NCBI GenBank assembly: GCA_007117785.1
Contig: SKFV01000016.1
Span: 1-33,823 of the forward strand
DNA: 33,823 nucleotides
Direction of reading: 5' to 3'
Source of the DNA: Pseudomonas sp.
Lineage (GTDB): Bacteria > Pseudomonadota > Gammaproteobacteria > Pseudomonadales > Pseudomonadaceae
Part shown: positions 2,530 to 16,535 of the stretch, one piece after another
Numbering within the stretch: position 1 is the stretch's first letter
Layout: every line of letters starts with the position of its first letter
Notes under the pieces: generated by a model
The model's input: only the letters and a program-made list of their open reading frames with translations
Told to the model about the DNA's origin: nothing
Database searches by the model: none
Program-made: the position numbers and the translations under genes

Positions 2530-4991
2530 GTCAACGTCTGCTGTAGTTGTTGTAACTGTTGGACAAGCTGTCCCAGTTGAGCAGCCAATTGTTGTTGCAA
2601 GGAACGGAGTACAGCTTGATCAGCCGCCTGACCAGCGGCTTGCTGCAAGGCACCTGCTGTTGCCACCACAGGTTCAGCGCCAAAGGTACCCACCAATCCT
2701 TTCAGCGTATGTGCCAGGCGACCAGCCGCAGCGGTGTCTGTTGCGTTAAGGGCTTCGTCCAACTCGACGAGATAGCCGGGACCATCGCGGACAAACATCT
2801 CTATAACTGTCAATAACAGACTTTTGTCCCCTCCCAGCCGACCCAGCATTGCGGGTATGTCAAGCGGAGGCAAGTCAGCGACACTTTCATTATCTGCCTC
2901 CTGCTCTGCTGCCAACAACAGCGTTTCGATGCGCTCTTCATTAAGCGTAACGGCGATGTCTGCAGGCTCGTAACCCGGCACCAATCGAATGATTTCATCA
3001 ATCAGCAGATCACTATCAATCGGCTTGGCTATGTAACCTTGAAAGCCCGACGCAAGGTATTGCTCACGATCACCCTGCATGGCGTTGGCCGTTAGAGCAA
3101 TGATGGGCGTCGCAGCGCAATCGGCGTTTTTCTCAAGTTGGCGTATCTGTCTCAGTGCTTGCTGACCGTCCATGACGGGCATCATGATATCCATCAAGAT
3201 CAGATCAAAGCGACACTCAACAGCCGCTGCCACCGCCTGCTCGCCATTCAGGGCGATATGCGGCTCAATACCATATTTTTTTAACAGCGATTGCAACAGT
3301 GCCAGATTGATACTGTTGTCTTCCGCCACCAACACCTTCAAACCATGCAAGTTATGTATCCGCCGACCCATCGTGCGATCAGCAGGTGGCCCTTGCAATA
3401 CATGACGGATTTCTTCCAGCATTACCGGCTGTATAAGCAAGTCAAACTGGCTCGCGGCAAGATCAGTGCTGATATGCTCAGCGCGCTGATCAGTCGCGAT
3501 GACAACCAGCTGACAGCTAGCGAGTTGCGCATCCTCTCGAATGGCTCGCAAACACTGGGCCTGATCCATACCCGCCTGCAAGGGCCCGAGAAATACATGG
3601 GTAAAAGTCGCTGCCTTGGCTCGTCGCAGCATGAACAAAGCCTCTGGCCCACTGGTCGCCCATTCTGACCCGATACCCAAACGTTTCAACATGACCAGCA
3701 ATAACTGTTTCAGCCGCGGCTGATCGGTGACCAGCAAGACCCGTGGCTGAGAACCATCAAGCGCCTCAAAGGCAGACGCCTCTGACGCTATAGCCGTGGG
3801 CAGGCTGAAGGTGAAGGTAGTCCCATGGTCCGGCTCGCTGTGCAGGTGAATCTCACCGTCGAGCAAATCGCCAAGCCGGCGCGCAATCGTCAGGCCAAGA
3901 CCAGAACCCTCGTATTGTCGGTTACTGGCACTGTCAACCTGGGTAAAGGGTTGAAAAATACGCTCTTGCAACGCAGGATCAATGCCTATTCCGCTATCAG
4001 TCACCTGGAAAATCAACTTGCCCTGTTCCGGCTGAACCGTATCTGCCTGCCAATCCACTTGCAGGCGAACAAACCCGCTGTCGGTAAACTTGAGGGCGTT
4101 GCCCAACAAGTTGATCAGGATCTGGCGGATGCGCGCCGAATCGGTATATACCCAGGCCGGCAAACCAATATCGAGGTCGTAACTGAAATCCAGCTGTTTA
4201 TCCCAGGCCGTGGTGGCAAGGGATTTCATTATTTCCCCACACAAAGAAAGGATATCAACTGGCTCTTTGTTGATCGACAGATGGCCGGCTTCAATCTTGG
4301 ACAAGTCCAGCACGTCGTTGATGATATTCAGCAAATGCTCAGCAGAGCGCTTGGCTAACTGCAGTTGATGGTACTGCAGGTGATCTAGCTGGGTATCCAG
4401 CATCAGATTCAACATGCCTAACACGCCGTTCATCGGGGTGCGTATTTCATGGCTCATATTGGCCAGAAACTGGCTTTTGGCCTGGTTGGCCTCTTCAGCC
4501 AGGCTGATCTGACGCTTGAGTTCACGCTCGTATTGACAGGCCCGAATGGCATGGCTCAGCTTGACCATCAACTGCTGCAGAGAAACCTGCAGATCATGAT
4601 CCAGTTCCTGCAGCCGCTTTTCCAGCAACAACACACCAATATCTGGCAGTTCAAAGGCGTAAAACCAGCCGCTGGCGGTAGCATGCGTGCAGGGCAATGG
4701 CCCGCCTTCGGCAAGTCGCTGAAGGAGCGGGGCAAAATAATCACCGGACATAATGCGCCTCGGGATTGCCGCCAAGCACGCATAACCCACGCCAGCCGCG
4801 TTGACGCCATCATCATTGCTGACCAACACCTGAACGGCCGTACCGTTCAGAGAACGCAGCAGGGTTCGCAAGCTATCCTGCAACATCTGATCCAGATCCA
4901 GACTGTTCCCGATAGACAGGGCTATCTGATAGAGAACTTCGGTTTTTTCTACCGAGTGCATCGGGTCAACCTCTACCGGCGGTGTCTTCAA
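2526..4991 (-). CDS. Hybrid histidine kinase: GAF-like N-terminus, HisKA-HATPase, pseudo-REC, REC, Hpt
   Basis: H-box [18 protein letters not shown]-box [12 protein letters not shown]-boxes VTDSGIGID and [12 protein letters not shown]; second [12 protein letters not shown]...[13 protein letters not shown]...YIAKP; Hpt [14 protein letters not shown] probable alternative start is Met at 4961, just after the FIST stop codon. Confidence 0.93.
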
Positions 4992-6123
4992 TCAGACCGA
5001 CAACACAGGTTTTGTTATAAAAATCCAGATAGTCATTACCACTGTTAGCGATTTCACCCAGGGTAAGCGCTCCCACAACCCGCGCTTTGTGGCCACCCGA
5101 GACCGCTGACAACTCGTCCTGAATGCGTTCCTGGAGAAACAGCACCCTGGAGATACAGTCAACCACCACGGTAATCACCTCATCCGGGAGCCCGATCGCT
5201 GCTGCCTGATCTGTGGCGATTGTCCGTGCCAAGGCTGCCGCAGCAATCAATTGATCAGCCTGACCGTGCAGAACGCGGACAAAACACCCTTCGGGTACCT
5301 CGCCAACACATACCAGCCCGCCGTCAGCATCGACGGCAATCGGGTCACGCACGACCATTTCGTTACTGAGCTTGGTGATACCGAACGGATAAGATTTCGC
5401 GGTACTGAAAAAATCGTCCAGATCCAGGGTGATGCCGGCATGATTGGCAATCTGCTCACGGTACACATCGAGTGCTGGACGCCAGTCAAGGCTACGGATA
5501 ACCGTACCTTGTGCCTCGGTTACCTTGAAACTGCCCGAAACGGGTTGCCAGCCATGTGCCACACCCAGCGCACTGCGTCGTGGCAAGTTGATCAGTACTG
5601 CAGCATCTTCATACAAGCCCTCTGGCGTAAGTAGGCAGGGCTTCTGTACCAGGCTCAGGGATCCCGCACCCCCACCAATAATATTTTTGTCTAGTGCAAA
5701 GCAATCGAAAAGGGCGTCCAAAAGATGACCAATCTGACCGGAAAGGCCATCCACCCAGACCATAAGGGTACCCTTTTCTTCTCGCTGCCACTCTGTAGCC
5801 ACCTCATGCAGGCGTGCCTCGTTCTCAGCAAGTGCTGCGGCATCACTGATCTGCGACAGCAGGCAATACGCTACCTGCAATTGCAGTGCGATGCAGATAA
5901 AACCACGTTCATAGTGCTGATCCTGAAAAATGATCTGTGGGAAAATCGCACCCAAAACAGGCGTTGCAGTTGACTTCAACAACAGGTCAAGCTCAGCCGC
6001 GTCCCAGTCATTACCATCTGCAGCGATGACCAGTAACGTTTTCACATCAGGTGCTGCCAACAAGCAGTTCATTTCGCTACGCAGTGCGGCCATGGTGTGT
6101 TCGGGACAAAACTTAACGTGCAT
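4966..6123 (-). CDS. FIST N/C domain sensory protein (NosP-like candidate)
   Basis: FIST-type pattern: [49 protein letters not shown]...; C-terminal [41 protein letters not shown] upstream. Overlaps or abuts the downstream hybrid kinase, as in known NosP/NahK-type pairs. Confidence 0.8.
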
Positions 6124-10849: not shown

Positions 10850-11554
10850 TCATTCCACATAGTGCCGGATACGCGAACTGACACAACGAATATGTTCGAG
10901 TATCTGGGTCATCTGTTGTGGCGCAAGGGCGTCACCCTGTTTCAGTTTATGCTCCAACAACTGAATATCATGTCGCTCCTCTACTGCCGCTGCAGCAAAA
11001 ATGCCGACCAGGCGATGGACACAATACAAATACTGCGTCAAGCTTCCTGCGTGCGACAAAAGGATCGACACATCGTCGAGATCTTGCAGCAAAGCCTGCA
11101 CAAACATAGCTCTTTGCGGTTGCGGCAAGCTCTCCAACCGCATGCTCAGGCCATCAACCGGCGACTCTTGCCTGGCTGGCAAGCCGAGCAAATCACGTAA
11201 GCCAGTCAGACTGACCGGCTTGCCTATAGCCCCGGAAAAACGCCCGCAGGCATTACTTGAGGAAGTCAGGTCCACCGGGTAGTCTGCGCTGATAACAAAA
11301 GTGTGGATACCCGGGCACCGGCGGTGCAATTCAGCACTCAAAATAGCACCATTACCTTCAGGCATAACCAAGTCAATCAAGGCGCGTTGAGGTTTATGCT
11401 CGCTGGCATACTCACAAGCTTGCAGAAAAGTTGAAGCACAAAAGCACTCATAGCCCAACTTTTCCAACAGTGCCTTGACCAGCAATAAGCAAGCCTCAGA
11501 GTCGTCAACCACAAGAATCTTTGCCGGACTAAACTGATGTTTTACGACCTGCAT
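10850..11554 (-). CDS. Response regulator receiver with C-terminal Hpt-like domain
   Basis: REC KILVVDDSEACLLLVKALLEKLGY...RALIDLVMPEGNG...FVISAD...GAIGKPVSL; C-terminal helix YLYCVHRLVGIFAAAAVEERHDIQLLEHKLKQGD resembles the Hpt HxLKG motif with Val for Lys. Confidence 0.75.
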   Translation of the reverse strand: MQVVKHQFSPAKILVVDDSEACLLLVKALLEKLGYECFCASTFLQACEYASEHKPQRALIDLVMPEGNGAILSAELHRRCPGIHTFVISADYPVDLTSSSNACGRFSGAIGKPVSLTGLRDLLGLPARQESPVDGLSMRLESLPQPQRAMFVQALLQDLDDVSILLSHAGSLTQYLYCVHRLVGIFAAAAVEERHDIQLLEHKLKQGDALAPQQMTQILEHIRCVSSRIRHYVE

Positions 11555-11602: not shown

Positions 11603-11623
11603 ACATAGCAGCTAAGGTCACTT

Positions 11624-13015
11624 ATGCCGGGGCAAGAAAGTTTGCTGATCGTTGAGGATAATCGTTCCAGTGCCATTCTGTATCAGGCCTGGTTGAGCGG
11701 GCTGGTTGATGATATCCGCCTGGCACATTCTGGCGCAGAGGTTATCGAGCAACTCAACCAGGGGCTCAAGCCTGCCGTCGTCCTGCTTGATATGCACCTT
11801 CCAGACACCACCGGGCTATCTTTACTTGAGCAACTGCGTACCCGCCAATTAACAACCAAGGTCGTTGTGATCACCTCGGATGCCTCGGCTGAATTGGCGG
11901 TAGAGGCGATGAAAGAAGGCGCCCACGATTATCTTCTCAAACCGGTCGATGATTACCGTTTGAGCGTGAGCATCAGCAACACACTACGCGCAGCCCGTCT
12001 GGAAAGCTTGGCCAATGGGGCAGGGCAATTTCAACAGGAGGAGCCACCTACTGCAGACTTTATTGGCTCCTCCTTGCCCATGCAGGCGCTATACAAAACC
12101 CTTAAACTAGCAGCCCTCTCCGATGCGCCCGTTTTCATCAGTGGTGAAAGCGGTACCGGCAAGGAGCTCTGTGCGCAAGCGATCCATGAACTCAGCCAAC
12201 GCAGCAAGGCTCCGCTAGTCTCGGTCAACTGTGCAACCATGCCGGTAGAGCTGGTTGAATCCCAACTGTTTGGCCATACCAAAGGGGCGTTCACGGGCGC
12301 AATCCAGAACCGTCGCGGACTCTGCGAAGAGGCACACAATGGCACGCTTTTTCTGGATGAGTTGACCGAGCTGAGTCTTGATGTGCAAAGCAAACTGCTT
12401 CGCTTTTTGCAAACAGGAGAAATCACGCCGGTCGGCTCTTCCGTCAGCAAAAAGGTCAATTGCCGGGTTGTCTGCGCCAGCAATATTGATATTCGTAAAG
12501 CCGTCAGCAATGGGCTCTTCCGTGAAGACCTGTTTTACCGGCTGCATGTCATTCCGGTTCAACTCCCGCCCTTACGCCATAGGGGAGACGACATCATTCA
12601 GCTGGCTGGCACGTTTCTTCAGCGCTACAGCGCCGCTGAAAACCGCCATTTCAAAGGCTTTACTCCGGCTGCCATCCAGGCACTGCTCGATTACAGCTGG
12701 CCAGGCAACGTTCGGGAACTGCAAAACAGTATTCGCCAAGCAGTTGTCATGCATTATGGTGAACAGGTAGAACCGCGGATGCTCGCATTGGGTTCAGCAA
12801 GCCTGGTCTCGCCTGCAACAACATCAGCGACCAATCCTGCACAGACCAAGGCTCACTCACCGACCTCACTCAAATCTCTCGCACAAGTTGAGAGAGAGGC
12901 CATCGATCATGCCATGCAGCATTTCGCAGGCAATATCACCAAAGTCGCTGCCGCTCTTGAGGTTGCCCCGTCAACGCTCTATCGTAAGCTGAAGCAGTAT
13001 CAAGGAAACACCTGA
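11624..13015 (+). CDS. NtrC/LuxO-type sigma54-dependent response regulator (REC-AAA+-Fis HTH)
   Basis: REC LLIVEDNRSS...VVLLDMHLPDTTG...YLLKPVD; Walker A GESGTGKE; GAFTGA loop LFGHTKGAFTGAIQ; GTLFLDELTEL; R-finger LFREDLFYRLHVIPVQLPPLRHR; C-terminal HTH ITKVAAALEVAPSTLYRKLKQY. Confidence 0.97.
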   Translation: MPGQESLLIVEDNRSSAILYQAWLSGLVDDIRLAHSGAEVIEQLNQGLKPAVVLLDMHLPDTTGLSLLEQLRTRQLTTKVVVITSDASAELAVEAMKEGAHDYLLKPVDDYRLSVSISNTLRAARLESLANGAGQFQQEEPPTADFIGSSLPMQALYKTLKLAALSDAPVFISGESGTGKELCAQAIHELSQRSKAPLVSVNCATMPVELVESQLFGHTKGAFTGAIQNRRGLCEEAHNGTLFLDELTELSLDVQSKLLRFLQTGEITPVGSSVSKKVNCRVVCASNIDIRKAVSNGLFREDLFYRLHVIPVQLPPLRHRGDDIIQLAGTFLQRYSAAENRHFKGFTPAAIQALLDYSWPGNVRELQNSIRQAVVMHYGEQVEPRMLALGSASLVSPATTSATNPAQTKAHSPTSLKSLAQVEREAIDHAMQHFAGNITKVAAALEVAPSTLYRKLKQYQGNT

Positions 13016-13054
13016 ATCGCCACGACCCCTCGCCGTGTCGACGTTTGCCTACCG

Positions 13055-13417
13055 CTATTCAAACGAGCCGCACAGCAACGCGGCACGCAGCTTGATCAGT
13101 TTATCGGCAGTATCTATGGCGGTGGTGACATGCTGCCCAACCTGTCCGCACCGAAGGGTATACCCAGATCGATAAACCGCAACCCCGTCGTCGGTGATCT
13201 GAATGCTGCCCACGCTTACGGACTCCTGCTGGAGACCGGTATTCATATCCATGAGATTGCTGTCGGCGAACAGGGCTAACGCAAACTCGAATCTGTCCCA
13301 CTGACCGGCCACTCGCAGGTTGATTTTGTTGCACTTGACCGCGGAAAAAGAATTATTCCGAGCGCTGGCGTAAGGCTTTGGCCTCAGAAGCGAAATGAAG
13401 TTTATTTTGCCTTGCAT
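13055..13417 (-). CDS. Hypothetical small protein (uncertain coding status)
   Basis: 120-aa ORF in the gap between 13015 and 13539 with no recognised family. Its start codon lies inside the 13411-13425 palindrome. Confidence 0.3.
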   Translation of the reverse strand: MQGKINFISLLRPKPYASARNNSFSAVKCNKINLRVAGQWDRFEFALALFADSNLMDMNTGLQQESVSVGSIQITDDGVAVYRSGYTLRCGQVGQHVTTAIDTADKLIKLRAALLCGSFE

Positions 13418-13425
13418 ATTGCAAG
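13411..13425. promoter_or_regulatory. LuxO-type upstream activator palindrome CTTGCA-TAT-TGCAAG
   Basis: CTTGCATATTGCAAG has perfect 6-bp inverted arms with a 3-bp spacer. The core TTGCATATTGCAA fits the LuxO-type pattern TTGCAWWWTGCAA. It lies about 60 bp upstream of a -24/-12 promoter candidate. Confidence 0.55.
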
Positions 13426-13484
13426 ACCCGCATCAAAGAGGCGTCAGGCAACAGCAGGTACCGGGCGCAGCGCGGCCATAATTA

Positions 13485-13500
13485 TGGCGTCAAAATTGCA
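13485..13500 (+). promoter_or_regulatory. Sigma54 (-24/-12) promoter candidate upstream of the kinase gene
   Basis: TGGCGTCAAAATTGCA: TGGC and TTGCA intact, exact GG-N10-GC spacing. Predicted start near 13511; RBS AGAGG; ATG at 13539. Confidence 0.7.
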
Positions 13501-13538
13501 GAAGCCTCTGTACCATTTCTTTCTGCCAGAGGTCAGCC

Positions 13539-14825
13539 ATGTCCTCCCGAATTGAACACATGTTACGTGGTTTCTTTAATCACATAGGTTTCGGTTTGTT
13601 GGTTACCGACCATGCACTGCGCGTGCTGTTCTGGAACGACATGATTGAACGACAAAGCGGTCTCAATCTGGCCACTCACCTCGGCCAACCCATCACTACT
13701 GTCTTCCCTGACAGTGATCACGCCACGCTGAAAAAAATGGCCACCGAAGCGATCGCCAATGATTGGCCAGTTTATAGCCATTGGCGACAGTCCCCTCTGC
13801 TCGTGGGCGACCCCATTCTCAATCCAAAATACAACAGCCCGCGACTGGAAAGTTCGATGGTATTTGCGTTTAACGACACCAATGGCCAACCACTGCTTGG
13901 CTTTGTTCAGTACGATGCCACGGACATAGCCCGCTCCTATGAAAAACTCAATGATGCCCGCAATCAATTGGCTATTCGTGAGCTCGAACAAGAAGAACTC
14001 ATCATCAGTCTGAAGCAAGCCAACATGCAGCTTGTGCAATCAGAGAAAATGGCTGCTATTGGCCAACTGGCAGCCGGCGTTGCGCATGAAATCAACAACC
14101 CTATCAGCTTTGTGATGTCGAATATCAACGCGCTGTCCGGATATGTGACAGATGTGCTGCATCTGATCAATGCGGTTGAAGACAAGCTGGATATCCAGCG
14201 CCTGCAGCAACTCAAGGACAGCATTGACTTTGGCATGATCCGTGATGACATCCAGGACCTGCTGCAGGAGTCTACCGAAGGGATATCCCGAGTGCGAAAG
14301 ATCATTCAGTCTCTCAAGGAGTTTTCCCATCAGGGCAGTAACGAGTTTGCCCTCGCCGATCTGAATACCGCCATCCGCAACTCGCTCAATCTGGTACACA
14401 ACGAAATCAAATACAAAGCTGAACTGATTGTCGAACTCGGCGACCTTCCCCAGGTTGAATGTATTTTATCGGAGATCAATCAGGTTCTGGTGAACTTACT
14501 GGTCAACGCTGCCCAAGCTATCGACCAGCAAGGTGTCATTACCGTGCGCTCAGGCAGCGTCGGGAAAAAGGTCTGGATCAACATTGAAGATACCGGTTGC
14601 GGCATGGATAACGCGACCCAAAAACGTATTTTCGAGCCCTTTTTCACCACCAAAGAAGTCGGTACGGGAACCGGACTGGGCCTGTCACTCTCCTATAACA
14701 TCGTTCAAAAACACGGCGGGCGCATTGAAGTCATCAGCGAACCTGGCGCCGGTACCTGTTTCCATCTTGAGCTGCCAGTATTGCAGCCAAACGAACACAA
14801 GGAGGTCAGCTATGTCAGCCAATAA
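13539..14825 (+). CDS. PAS-domain sensor histidine kinase
   Basis: PAS-like LLVTDHALRVLFWNDMIERQSG; H-box SEKMAAIGQLAAGVAHEINNPISFV; N-box QVLVNLLVNAAQAI; IEDTGCGMD; GTGTGLGLSLSYNIVQKHGG. Confidence 0.95.
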   Translation: MSSRIEHMLRGFFNHIGFGLLVTDHALRVLFWNDMIERQSGLNLATHLGQPITTVFPDSDHATLKKMATEAIANDWPVYSHWRQSPLLVGDPILNPKYNSPRLESSMVFAFNDTNGQPLLGFVQYDATDIARSYEKLNDARNQLAIRELEQEELIISLKQANMQLVQSEKMAAIGQLAAGVAHEINNPISFVMSNINALSGYVTDVLHLINAVEDKLDIQRLQQLKDSIDFGMIRDDIQDLLQESTEGISRVRKIIQSLKEFSHQGSNEFALADLNTAIRNSLNLVHNEIKYKAELIVELGDLPQVECILSEINQVLVNLLVNAAQAIDQQGVITVRSGSVGKKVWINIEDTGCGMDNATQKRIFEPFFTTKEVGTGTGLGLSLSYNIVQKHGGRIEVISEPGAGTCFHLELPVLQPNEHKEVSYVSQ

Positions 14826-16167
14826 CACGGAACAAGCCATTCGCTTGTTGCTGGTCGATGATGAGCCGAATATTCTCCGCAGCCTGCATCGCTTACTGCG
14901 TCAGGACGATTACGCCATCACGCTGGCAGAGTCGGGTGATGCCGCCTATGCCCTGTTACAGCAGCAAGCCTTTGACGTCATCGTCTCTGATGCACGGATG
15001 CCCGGCATGGATGGCGCCACCCTGCTTGGCCATGCTTATACCCTCTGGCCAGACAGTGTACGCATATTACTGACCGGCTACGCGGATATGACGACTACCG
15101 TCAAAGCCGTTAATGAAGGACAAATTTTCCGCTACCTGAGCAAACCCTGGGACGACGACGAGCTGCGTCACACCCTACAGCAGGGCTTGACGTTACAGGC
15201 GTCAGAGCGAGAGCGGATCCGCCTGAGTCGTATCATTACCCGACAGAACCATCAACTCAAACAACTCAACGACCAACTACAGCATCAGGTCACCGCAAAG
15301 ACCAGCGAGCTGGAGCAGACAGCCGACATGCTGGACCTGACCTATGAAGAGTTGAAGCACAGTTATATGCAAGCGACCGAAGTGTTTGGATCGCTGATCA
15401 ATATGCGCTTGCCGGCCAGCCAGCATACCAATGCCCGCGTTACCGAGCTGTGCAATGCCATGGCAGCATTACTGGATTACGCCGAGAGTGACCGGCGTAA
15501 TCTCACCATGGCAGCCGCTCTCTATAACATCGGCAAGCTGACCTGGGACGATCGTTTACTGCAACTGCCGCTCGACAGCATGGGTAATCGTGAGCGACAA
15601 CTCTGGGAACGCTACCCGCAAACCAGCAGTGAAGTGCTGTTGGGGCTGGAACCCTTGCAGGAGACTGCACAGATTATTCGCCATCATCAGGAGGCCTGGA
15701 ACGGCAGTGGACACCCCGACCAACTGACCGGCAATGCTATACCCCGTTCAAGCCAGATTTTACGTCTCGCCGTTGATTACATTGAGCTGCAAGCTGGCCT
15801 GATCGTGCCACGACAACTGGACCGCGAACAGGCTATCGATCTGATTCAGCAAGCAGCGGGCAGCCGCTACTCACCGGAACTCGTGCCGCTGTTCGTAGCG
15901 TGTACCGAACAGTTTGCGGAGTTATCGCCAGGCCAGGACGCCTGTGTGTGGTTGAGCACTCGGCAGCTTCTACCCGGCATGGTACTGGGCAAGAACCTTA
16001 TCGCACATAGCGGCTTACTGTTACTGAATGCCAACAAGGCGCTGAGCGACATGATCATCGATAAGTTACTGAGCTTTGAAGCCAGTGAACAAACCCAATA
16101 CCGGGTGCCTGTCCTCAAGGACAGCCTCAAAAACAGTCAAACCATCCGTGAGGACACCGTCCCATGA
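14812..16167 (+). CDS. Response regulator with degenerate HD-GYP-like output domain
   Basis: Start set at MSANNTEQAIRLLLVDDEPN (14812) rather than the track's 14533. REC ...VIVSDARMPGMDG...YLSKPWDDDEL; output domain AALYNIGKLTWDD (HD replaced by YN) and IIRHHQEAWNGSGHPDQLTG (GYP replaced by GHP). Confidence 0.88.
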   Translation: MSANNTEQAIRLLLVDDEPNILRSLHRLLRQDDYAITLAESGDAAYALLQQQAFDVIVSDARMPGMDGATLLGHAYTLWPDSVRILLTGYADMTTTVKAVNEGQIFRYLSKPWDDDELRHTLQQGLTLQASERERIRLSRIITRQNHQLKQLNDQLQHQVTAKTSELEQTADMLDLTYEELKHSYMQATEVFGSLINMRLPASQHTNARVTELCNAMAALLDYAESDRRNLTMAAALYNIGKLTWDDRLLQLPLDSMGNRERQLWERYPQTSSEVLLGLEPLQETAQIIRHHQEAWNGSGHPDQLTGNAIPRSSQILRLAVDYIELQAGLIVPRQLDREQAIDLIQQAAGSRYSPELVPLFVACTEQFAELSPGQDACVWLSTRQLLPGMVLGKNLIAHSGLLLLNANKALSDMIIDKLLSFEASEQTQYRVPVLKDSLKNSQTIREDTVP

Positions 16168-16535
16168 AAATTCAACTCGTCGACGATGAACCCTTTCTGC
16201 TGAAGGCTATGCAGCGTGAATTGCGTCGCTATGGCGACTGGGAAACCCACTCCTTTACCTCAGCAGAAGATGCGCTGGAAGGGCTGGAAAGGCACGAATA
16301 TGACATTATCATCAGCGATTACAGCATGCCGAAAAGCAGCGGTGTCGACTACCTGCAACAGGTACGCCAGAAACAGCCAAATGCCAAACGCGTATTGTTG
16401 ACCGCGTGGGCGGACCAGCAGGTACTGGCTGATGCGATCAACCGCGCCCAAGTTCACTGTTACTGGCCCAAACCCTGGCAGGTCAGCCAATTACTTGAGC
16501 TGATGAAAAGCCATGAGCAAGCGGTGCAACCCTAA
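16164..16535 (+). CDS. Stand-alone response regulator receiver
   Basis: MKIQLVDDEPFLLKAMQRELRRYG...DIIISDYSMPKSSGVDYL...VLLTAWAD...YWPKPW. Overlaps the upstream stop by 4 nt (ATGA). Confidence 0.92.
   Translation: MKIQLVDDEPFLLKAMQRELRRYGDWETHSFTSAEDALEGLERHEYDIIISDYSMPKSSGVDYLQQVRQKQPNAKRVLLTAWADQQVLADAINRAQVHCYWPKPWQVSQLLELMKSHEQAVQP

Follow-up and report, generated by a model that had tools for sequence, protein, structure and literature searches.

A putative sigma54 promoter with a LuxO/SypG-type enhancer dyad upstream of a kinase operon in Pseudomonas sp.

Genes and features of the signaling island

The stretch of Pseudomonas sp. DNA analyzed here (33,823 nucleotides, hereafter the window) contains an island of signaling genes, in which the gene for an enhancer-binding protein is followed, on the same strand, by an operon of three genes, and faces a divergent block that includes genes for a REC-Hpt protein and a FIST-domain protein (table 1). 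In the operon, the ATG of the second gene (14812) overlaps the stop of the kinase gene and has its own Shine-Dalgarno sequence (AAGGAGG, 14799–14805). The product of this second gene reaches 511 bits with the NosR family model (NF053512, at least 400 bits required), and its HD-GYP motif is degenerate, with YN in place of HD and GHP in place of GYP. A scan of genome contigs yielded, for the kinase, only a relative at 30%. The window gave no hit to any Rfam family, and no Qrr RNA was found in the genome by an Rfam search run without a positive control on an assembly about 81% complete. At the left edge of the window lies an integrase core domain (rve, 730–1215), which probably belongs to an insertion sequence.

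The product of 11624–13015 has the domains of group I bacterial enhancer-binding proteins: a receiver (REC), an AAA+ domain with the GAFTGA loop and a Fis-type helix-turn-helix (HTH). LuxO is its top match both in the PDB (5ep0, 373 bits, the next protein reaching 291) and among the NCBIfam models (NF041946, 494.5 bits, the next model reaching 369.5). Because the latter score is below the equivalog cutoff of 800 bits, we classify the protein, by sequence, as LuxO-like and not as LuxO. The HTH helix motif PST[IL]YR is common to nearly all aligned relatives, including a LuxO-like protein of Aeromonas. Elsewhere in the genome to which the window belongs (locus L164, contig C379 of genome G000), a strong sigma54 site, TTGGCATGGCACTTGCG (7828–7812, minus strand), is accompanied by several near-dyads and adjoins the gene of another NtrC-type activator (C379:8063–9328).

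The C-terminal half of the REC-Hpt protein aligns with the C-terminus of a REC protein and with a stand-alone protein of 112 aa, encoded at the L109 and L110 loci of two congeners, respectively (see below), and an H-x-L-V-G box is common to the three proteins. The model of the C-terminal domain is all helical (pLDDT 83), and Hpt domains, HptB of P. aeruginosa among them, are its top fold matches, at a TM-score of about 0.7 and nonsignificant E-values (above 0.04); the protein has no Pfam Hpt match. From the alignments and the modeled fold, a LuxU-like role may reasonably be inferred. The FIST protein scores 27.9 bits with the NosP model (NF041558, at least 450 bits required) and is designated here only by its domain.

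Table 1. Coordinates of the genes and sites discussed in the text
Feature	Position	Strand	Remarks
FIST-domain protein, divergent block	4966–6123	-	L109 counterpart under a dyad-plus-sigma54 promoter
REC-Hpt protein with H-R-L-V-G box, proposed LuxU-like phosphodonor	10850–11554	-	Divergent from activator gene
Other sigma54 candidate, TTGGATTGATACTTGCA	11603–11587	-	Before REC-Hpt gene; 15.1 bits
LuxO/SypG-like bacterial enhancer-binding protein, proposed activator	11624–13015	+	REC, AAA+ with GAFTGA, Fis HTH
Candidate upstream activating sequence, TTGCATATTGCAA	13412–13424	.	Perfect match to LuxO/SypG-type TTGCAWWWTGCAA
Putative sigma54 core promoter, ATGGCGTCAAAATTGCA	13484–13500	+	-24 GG 13486–13487, -12 GC 13498–13499, GG-N10-GC spacing
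Predicted transcription start, ~13511	13510–13512	+	Inferred; 12 nt past C of -12 element
AGAGG, likely ribosome-binding site for ATG 13539	13528–13532	+	
PAS-histidine kinase, 428 aa, operon gene 1	13539–14825	+	HEINN phosphatase-type H-box
REC + degenerate HD-GYP protein, NosR family, operon gene 2	14812–16167	+	NCBIfam
Stand-alone receiver, 123 aa, operon gene 3	16164–16535	+	4-nt overlap with preceding gene

Putative core promoter, enhancer dyad and the background of chance matches

The sequence TGGCGTCAAAATTGCA, preceded by an A at 13484, occupies positions 13485–13500 of the plus strand. An earlier note on this DNA had proposed it as a sigma54 promoter of the plus-strand operon, and the elements that it described are present: TGGC, TTGCA and their spacing, a leader of 28 nt between the predicted start and ATG 13539, and a ribosome-binding site close to this ATG. 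The full site, ATGGCGTCAAAATTGCA, has all four key bases, with GG and GC ten bases apart in a TTGGCACG-N4-TTGCW context, and has a modest core score, 12.5 of 22.9 bits. It is located in the intergenic gap of about 520 bp between the activator gene, which ends at 13015, and ATG 13539, and the genome encodes RpoN (PF00309, 51 bits for a cutoff of 23.8). A perfect 14-bp palindrome, GCCATAATTATGGC (13475–13488), overlaps the -24 element and is a possible operator for a second regulator. In addition, CCTCTG (13505–13510) can form a leader hairpin with CAGAGG (13527–13532), which includes the ribosome-binding site, but only in RNA begun upstream of 13511; when this pairing was folded for read-through RNA, no convincing switch that would hide the site emerged.

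Matches of this quality are common in the genome. Our score matrix is an approximation of the published consensus, and its background was a 605-kb sample of the same genome, part of which had been picked from contigs already known to contain TGGC-N7-TTGCA, a choice that inflates the background. In this sample, sites scoring at least 12.5 occur about 1.93 times per 15 kb when both strands and all positions are counted, and 0.20 times per 15 kb, about tenfold more rarely, when the count is restricted to noncoding DNA and to sites oriented toward a start at most 200 bp away. The latter positions are 4.4-fold enriched in such sites, with hardly any enrichment within the score bin of the 13484–13500 site. 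This site is itself absent from the 5' noncoding count, because the crude ORF caller dropped the kinase gene (13539–14825). The window contains 13 sites of at least 12 bits for 4.3 expected from a Markov model, most of them within genes, and four copies of TGGC-N7-TTGCA for 0.96 in shuffles, the remaining three being intragenic; an unbiased count of the whole genome gives 61 copies in 2.71 Mb.

The earlier note had considered two good sites in one island, one before each gene block, to be more than chance would give, and had named a high background rate as what would refute this. The scan of the 605-kb sample returned such a rate: at about 1.9 matches per 15 kb, two sites are the average (P ~0.57), and the claim stands only when restricted to 5' noncoding positions (P ~0.017). 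For the same reason, we rejected the core score alone as proof of a promoter. Nor do the two sites form an equivalent pair. The minus-strand candidate at 11603–11587 scores higher, but no dyad within 150 bp of it has fewer than four mismatches, and an enhancer shared by the two sites was sought and not found; the corresponding divergent gap of L109 contains no sigma54 site. This candidate lacks an enhancer dyad and is, on sequence grounds, less supported than 13484–13500.

The feature that sets the latter apart is the 13-bp dyad TTGCATATTGCAA, embedded in CTTGCA-TAT-TGCAAG (13411–13425) and ending 61 bp before the -24 GG. It matches in full TTGCAWWWTGCAA, the 13-bp site of LuxO, which SypG apparently also uses at qrr1 (PMC10162802), and resembles sites found by ChIP-seq of V. 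cholerae LuxO, such as ttgcaatttgcaa (PMC10328515). It is centered some 93 bp before the predicted start, within the usual enhancer distance (~70–150 bp). In the 2.71-Mb assembly, the perfect TTGCAWWWTGCAA (WWW form) is found at this single position, and TTGCANNNTGCAA occurs three times; of the two copies elsewhere, one is within what appears to be an alcohol dehydrogenase gene and the other in apparently coding DNA. Across the genus, the WWW form is present in only 6 of the 37 genomes scanned; in the five congeners, the matches have no adjoining sigma54 site. Because the only perfect LuxO-type dyad of the genome is at an enhancer position, with a regulator gene next door, it is very probable that 13484–13500 is a true sigma54 promoter.

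These observations bear on two other explanations. The core could be a chance match, the operon being transcribed by read-through from the activator gene or from an unrecognized sigma70 promoter in 13020–13480. The high background is in keeping with this, as is the position of the activator gene upstream on the same strand, with one weak terminator-like site in between. However, a perfect dyad is expected by chance within 150 bp with a probability of only ~1.7e-4 and occurred in none of 20,000 random 150-bp stretches, the intergenic gap spans about 520 bp, and no sigma70-type hexamer pair was found in 12900–13700, so that we consider this explanation quite unlikely. The dyad could otherwise be the operator of a small divergent ORF of 120 aa (13055–13417, minus strand), whose first ATG falls inside it, and not an enhancer of the plus-strand operon. 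Yet no sigma54 site faces this ORF at a suitable distance, and the ORF may not be a gene, because neither a Pfam match nor, in 36 congeners, a relative was found for it and because its ATG lies inside the dyad; such an arrangement appears very improbable.

Orthologous activators and their predicted promoters

Close orthologs of the activator were identified in only two congeners (58% and 56% identical). The sigma54 scan of the 20-kb surroundings of both genes (loci L109 and L110) preceded the discovery of the dyad, and the best site was the same 17-mer, ATGGCCCGGCTCTTGCT, in both. In L109, the genes downstream of this site encode RR-GGDEF-EAL, FIST and hybrid kinase proteins, and in L110 a PAS-chemoreceptor. 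Each copy is preceded by three dyads with zero or one mismatch, against one dyad before the kinase operon of the window; these dyads are separated by the same 13- and 19-bp steps and end 54–99 bp before the GG. In L109 (9943–18137), the LuxO-like activator gene is divergent from the REC-Hpt, RR-GGDEF-EAL, FIST and hybrid kinase genes, and all of these but the REC-Hpt gene are under the three-dyad promoter.

In a more distant set of 16 loci with LuxO-like activators (same order, 44–47% identical), a dyad with at most one mismatch combined with a sigma54 score of at least 11 was found at eight promoters, in 5 of the 16 loci (~70 kb), against two such combinations in 572 kb of the present genome (Poisson ~3e-10). 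Several of the dyad-bearing loci, among them L206–L208, look like polysaccharide loci of the syp and scv kind; in one locus, an Hpt gene and a REC-SpoIIE gene stand at the two divergent promoters. In L207 (8631–8795), a single perfect dyad (TTGCAGTTTGCAA) is shared by two divergent sigma54 promoters, which stand between epimerase and glycosyltransferase genes, beside the gene of a LuxO-like activator.

The kinase operon is not beside the activator gene in the sister genomes, and the exact promoter can therefore not be footprinted by alignment. Full-length relatives of the kinase in other genera (L111–L117) have neither a dyad-plus-promoter upstream nor an adjoining activator of this type.

The dyad could also be incidental, or belong to another regulator, with a different enhancer-binding protein of the genome driving a genuine sigma54 promoter. 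Three further NtrC-type proteins in the genome match the 11624–13015 product at E-values of at most 1e-80, and the palindrome over the -24 element could be the operator of another regulator. On the other hand, the dyad matches the published LuxO/SypG site, the gene of the LuxO-like activator ends about 400 bp upstream of it, and dyads of this type co-occur with orthologs of this activator in sister species and in more distant relatives. A different activator is thus unlikely. The promoter assignment of the earlier note is well supported by evidence that it did not contain, namely the dyad, the adjacent LuxO-like activator, RpoN and the orthologous layout.

Proposed relay and comparison with known systems

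Taken together, it is highly likely, judging from the DNA, that 13484–13500 is a genuine sigma54 promoter of the 13539–16535 operon and that the LuxO/SypG-like activator drives it through the dyad. We infer the following course of events. The activator would be phosphorylated on its receiver, plausibly with phosphate from the divergently encoded REC-Hpt protein (11554–10850), as LuxO is from LuxU. The phosphorylated protein would bind the dyad, about 90 bp upstream of the start, loop to the sigma54-RNA polymerase at 13484–13500 and open the promoter by means of its GAFTGA AAA+ ATPase. The operon would then be a direct target of a LuxO-type relay that feeds c-di-GMP-type signaling.

In a broader reading, which we put forward tentatively and with slightly less than even confidence, a LuxO/SypG-type relay outside Vibrionaceae has been rewired to directly drive c-di-GMP and nitric-oxide-type two-component operons. 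Its parts would be the REC-Hpt protein, the LuxO-like activator, TTGCA-N3-TGCAA enhancers and sigma54, and its targets the NosK/NosR-like genes here and the RR-GGDEF-EAL/FIST/hybrid kinase or PAS-chemoreceptor operons in the sister species. If so, the relay would provide FIST/NosR signaling with a transcriptional front end and would not be a quorum-sensing switch. The analysis provides an otherwise uncharacterized signaling island with a testable target, a candidate binding site and a candidate activator. A further suggestion from it is that the enhancer code of LuxO and SypG reaches beyond vibrios and can directly control c-di-GMP and FIST/NosR-type genes, in place of Qrr RNAs or polysaccharide genes. 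The combination of a TTGCA-N3-TGCAA dyad with a -24/-12 site is specific enough for regulon mapping in related genomes.

One close parallel is the LuxO-qrr system of Vibrio (PMC10328515, PMC10162802), which likewise has sigma54 promoters with an upstream TTGCAWWWTGCAA dyad and a REC-AAA+-Fis activator, LuxO being the curated family closest to the activator of the window; the Hpt-type protein encoded beside the latter is a possible analog of LuxU. The two differ in that the predicted target in the window is the mRNA of a kinase/HD-GYP/receiver operon and not a Qrr sRNA, and in that the activator falls below the LuxO equivalog cutoff. With SypG/ScvE and the syp and scv promoters (PMC10162802, PMC8941931), the window shares a LuxO-like activator encoded inside the locus that it regulates (or, here, is proposed to regulate), nearby hybrid kinases and several sigma54 promoters with an overlapping type of upstream activating sequence. 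Unlike these loci, it has no polysaccharide genes among its annotated genes, and its outputs are c-di-GMP-type and two-component proteins.

The operon itself resembles the NosP-NosK-NosR system of Burkholderia (PMC12570481), with a soluble HEINN kinase as its first gene, a NosR-family REC-degenerate HD-GYP protein as its second and a FIST protein in the same island. It differs from that system in the PAS domain of the kinase, in the location of the FIST gene in the divergent block, in the score of the FIST protein, far below the NosP cutoff, and in its third gene, for a lone receiver; control of the sigma54/LuxO type was not described for the Burkholderia operon (PMC12570481). In V. cholerae, NosP is linked to LuxO through VpsS and LuxU (PMC6769237). 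Because of this circuit and of NosP-NosK-NosR, together with the NosR-family membership of the second gene product and the FIST gene of the island, nitric oxide is suggested, by analogy only, as the input signal.
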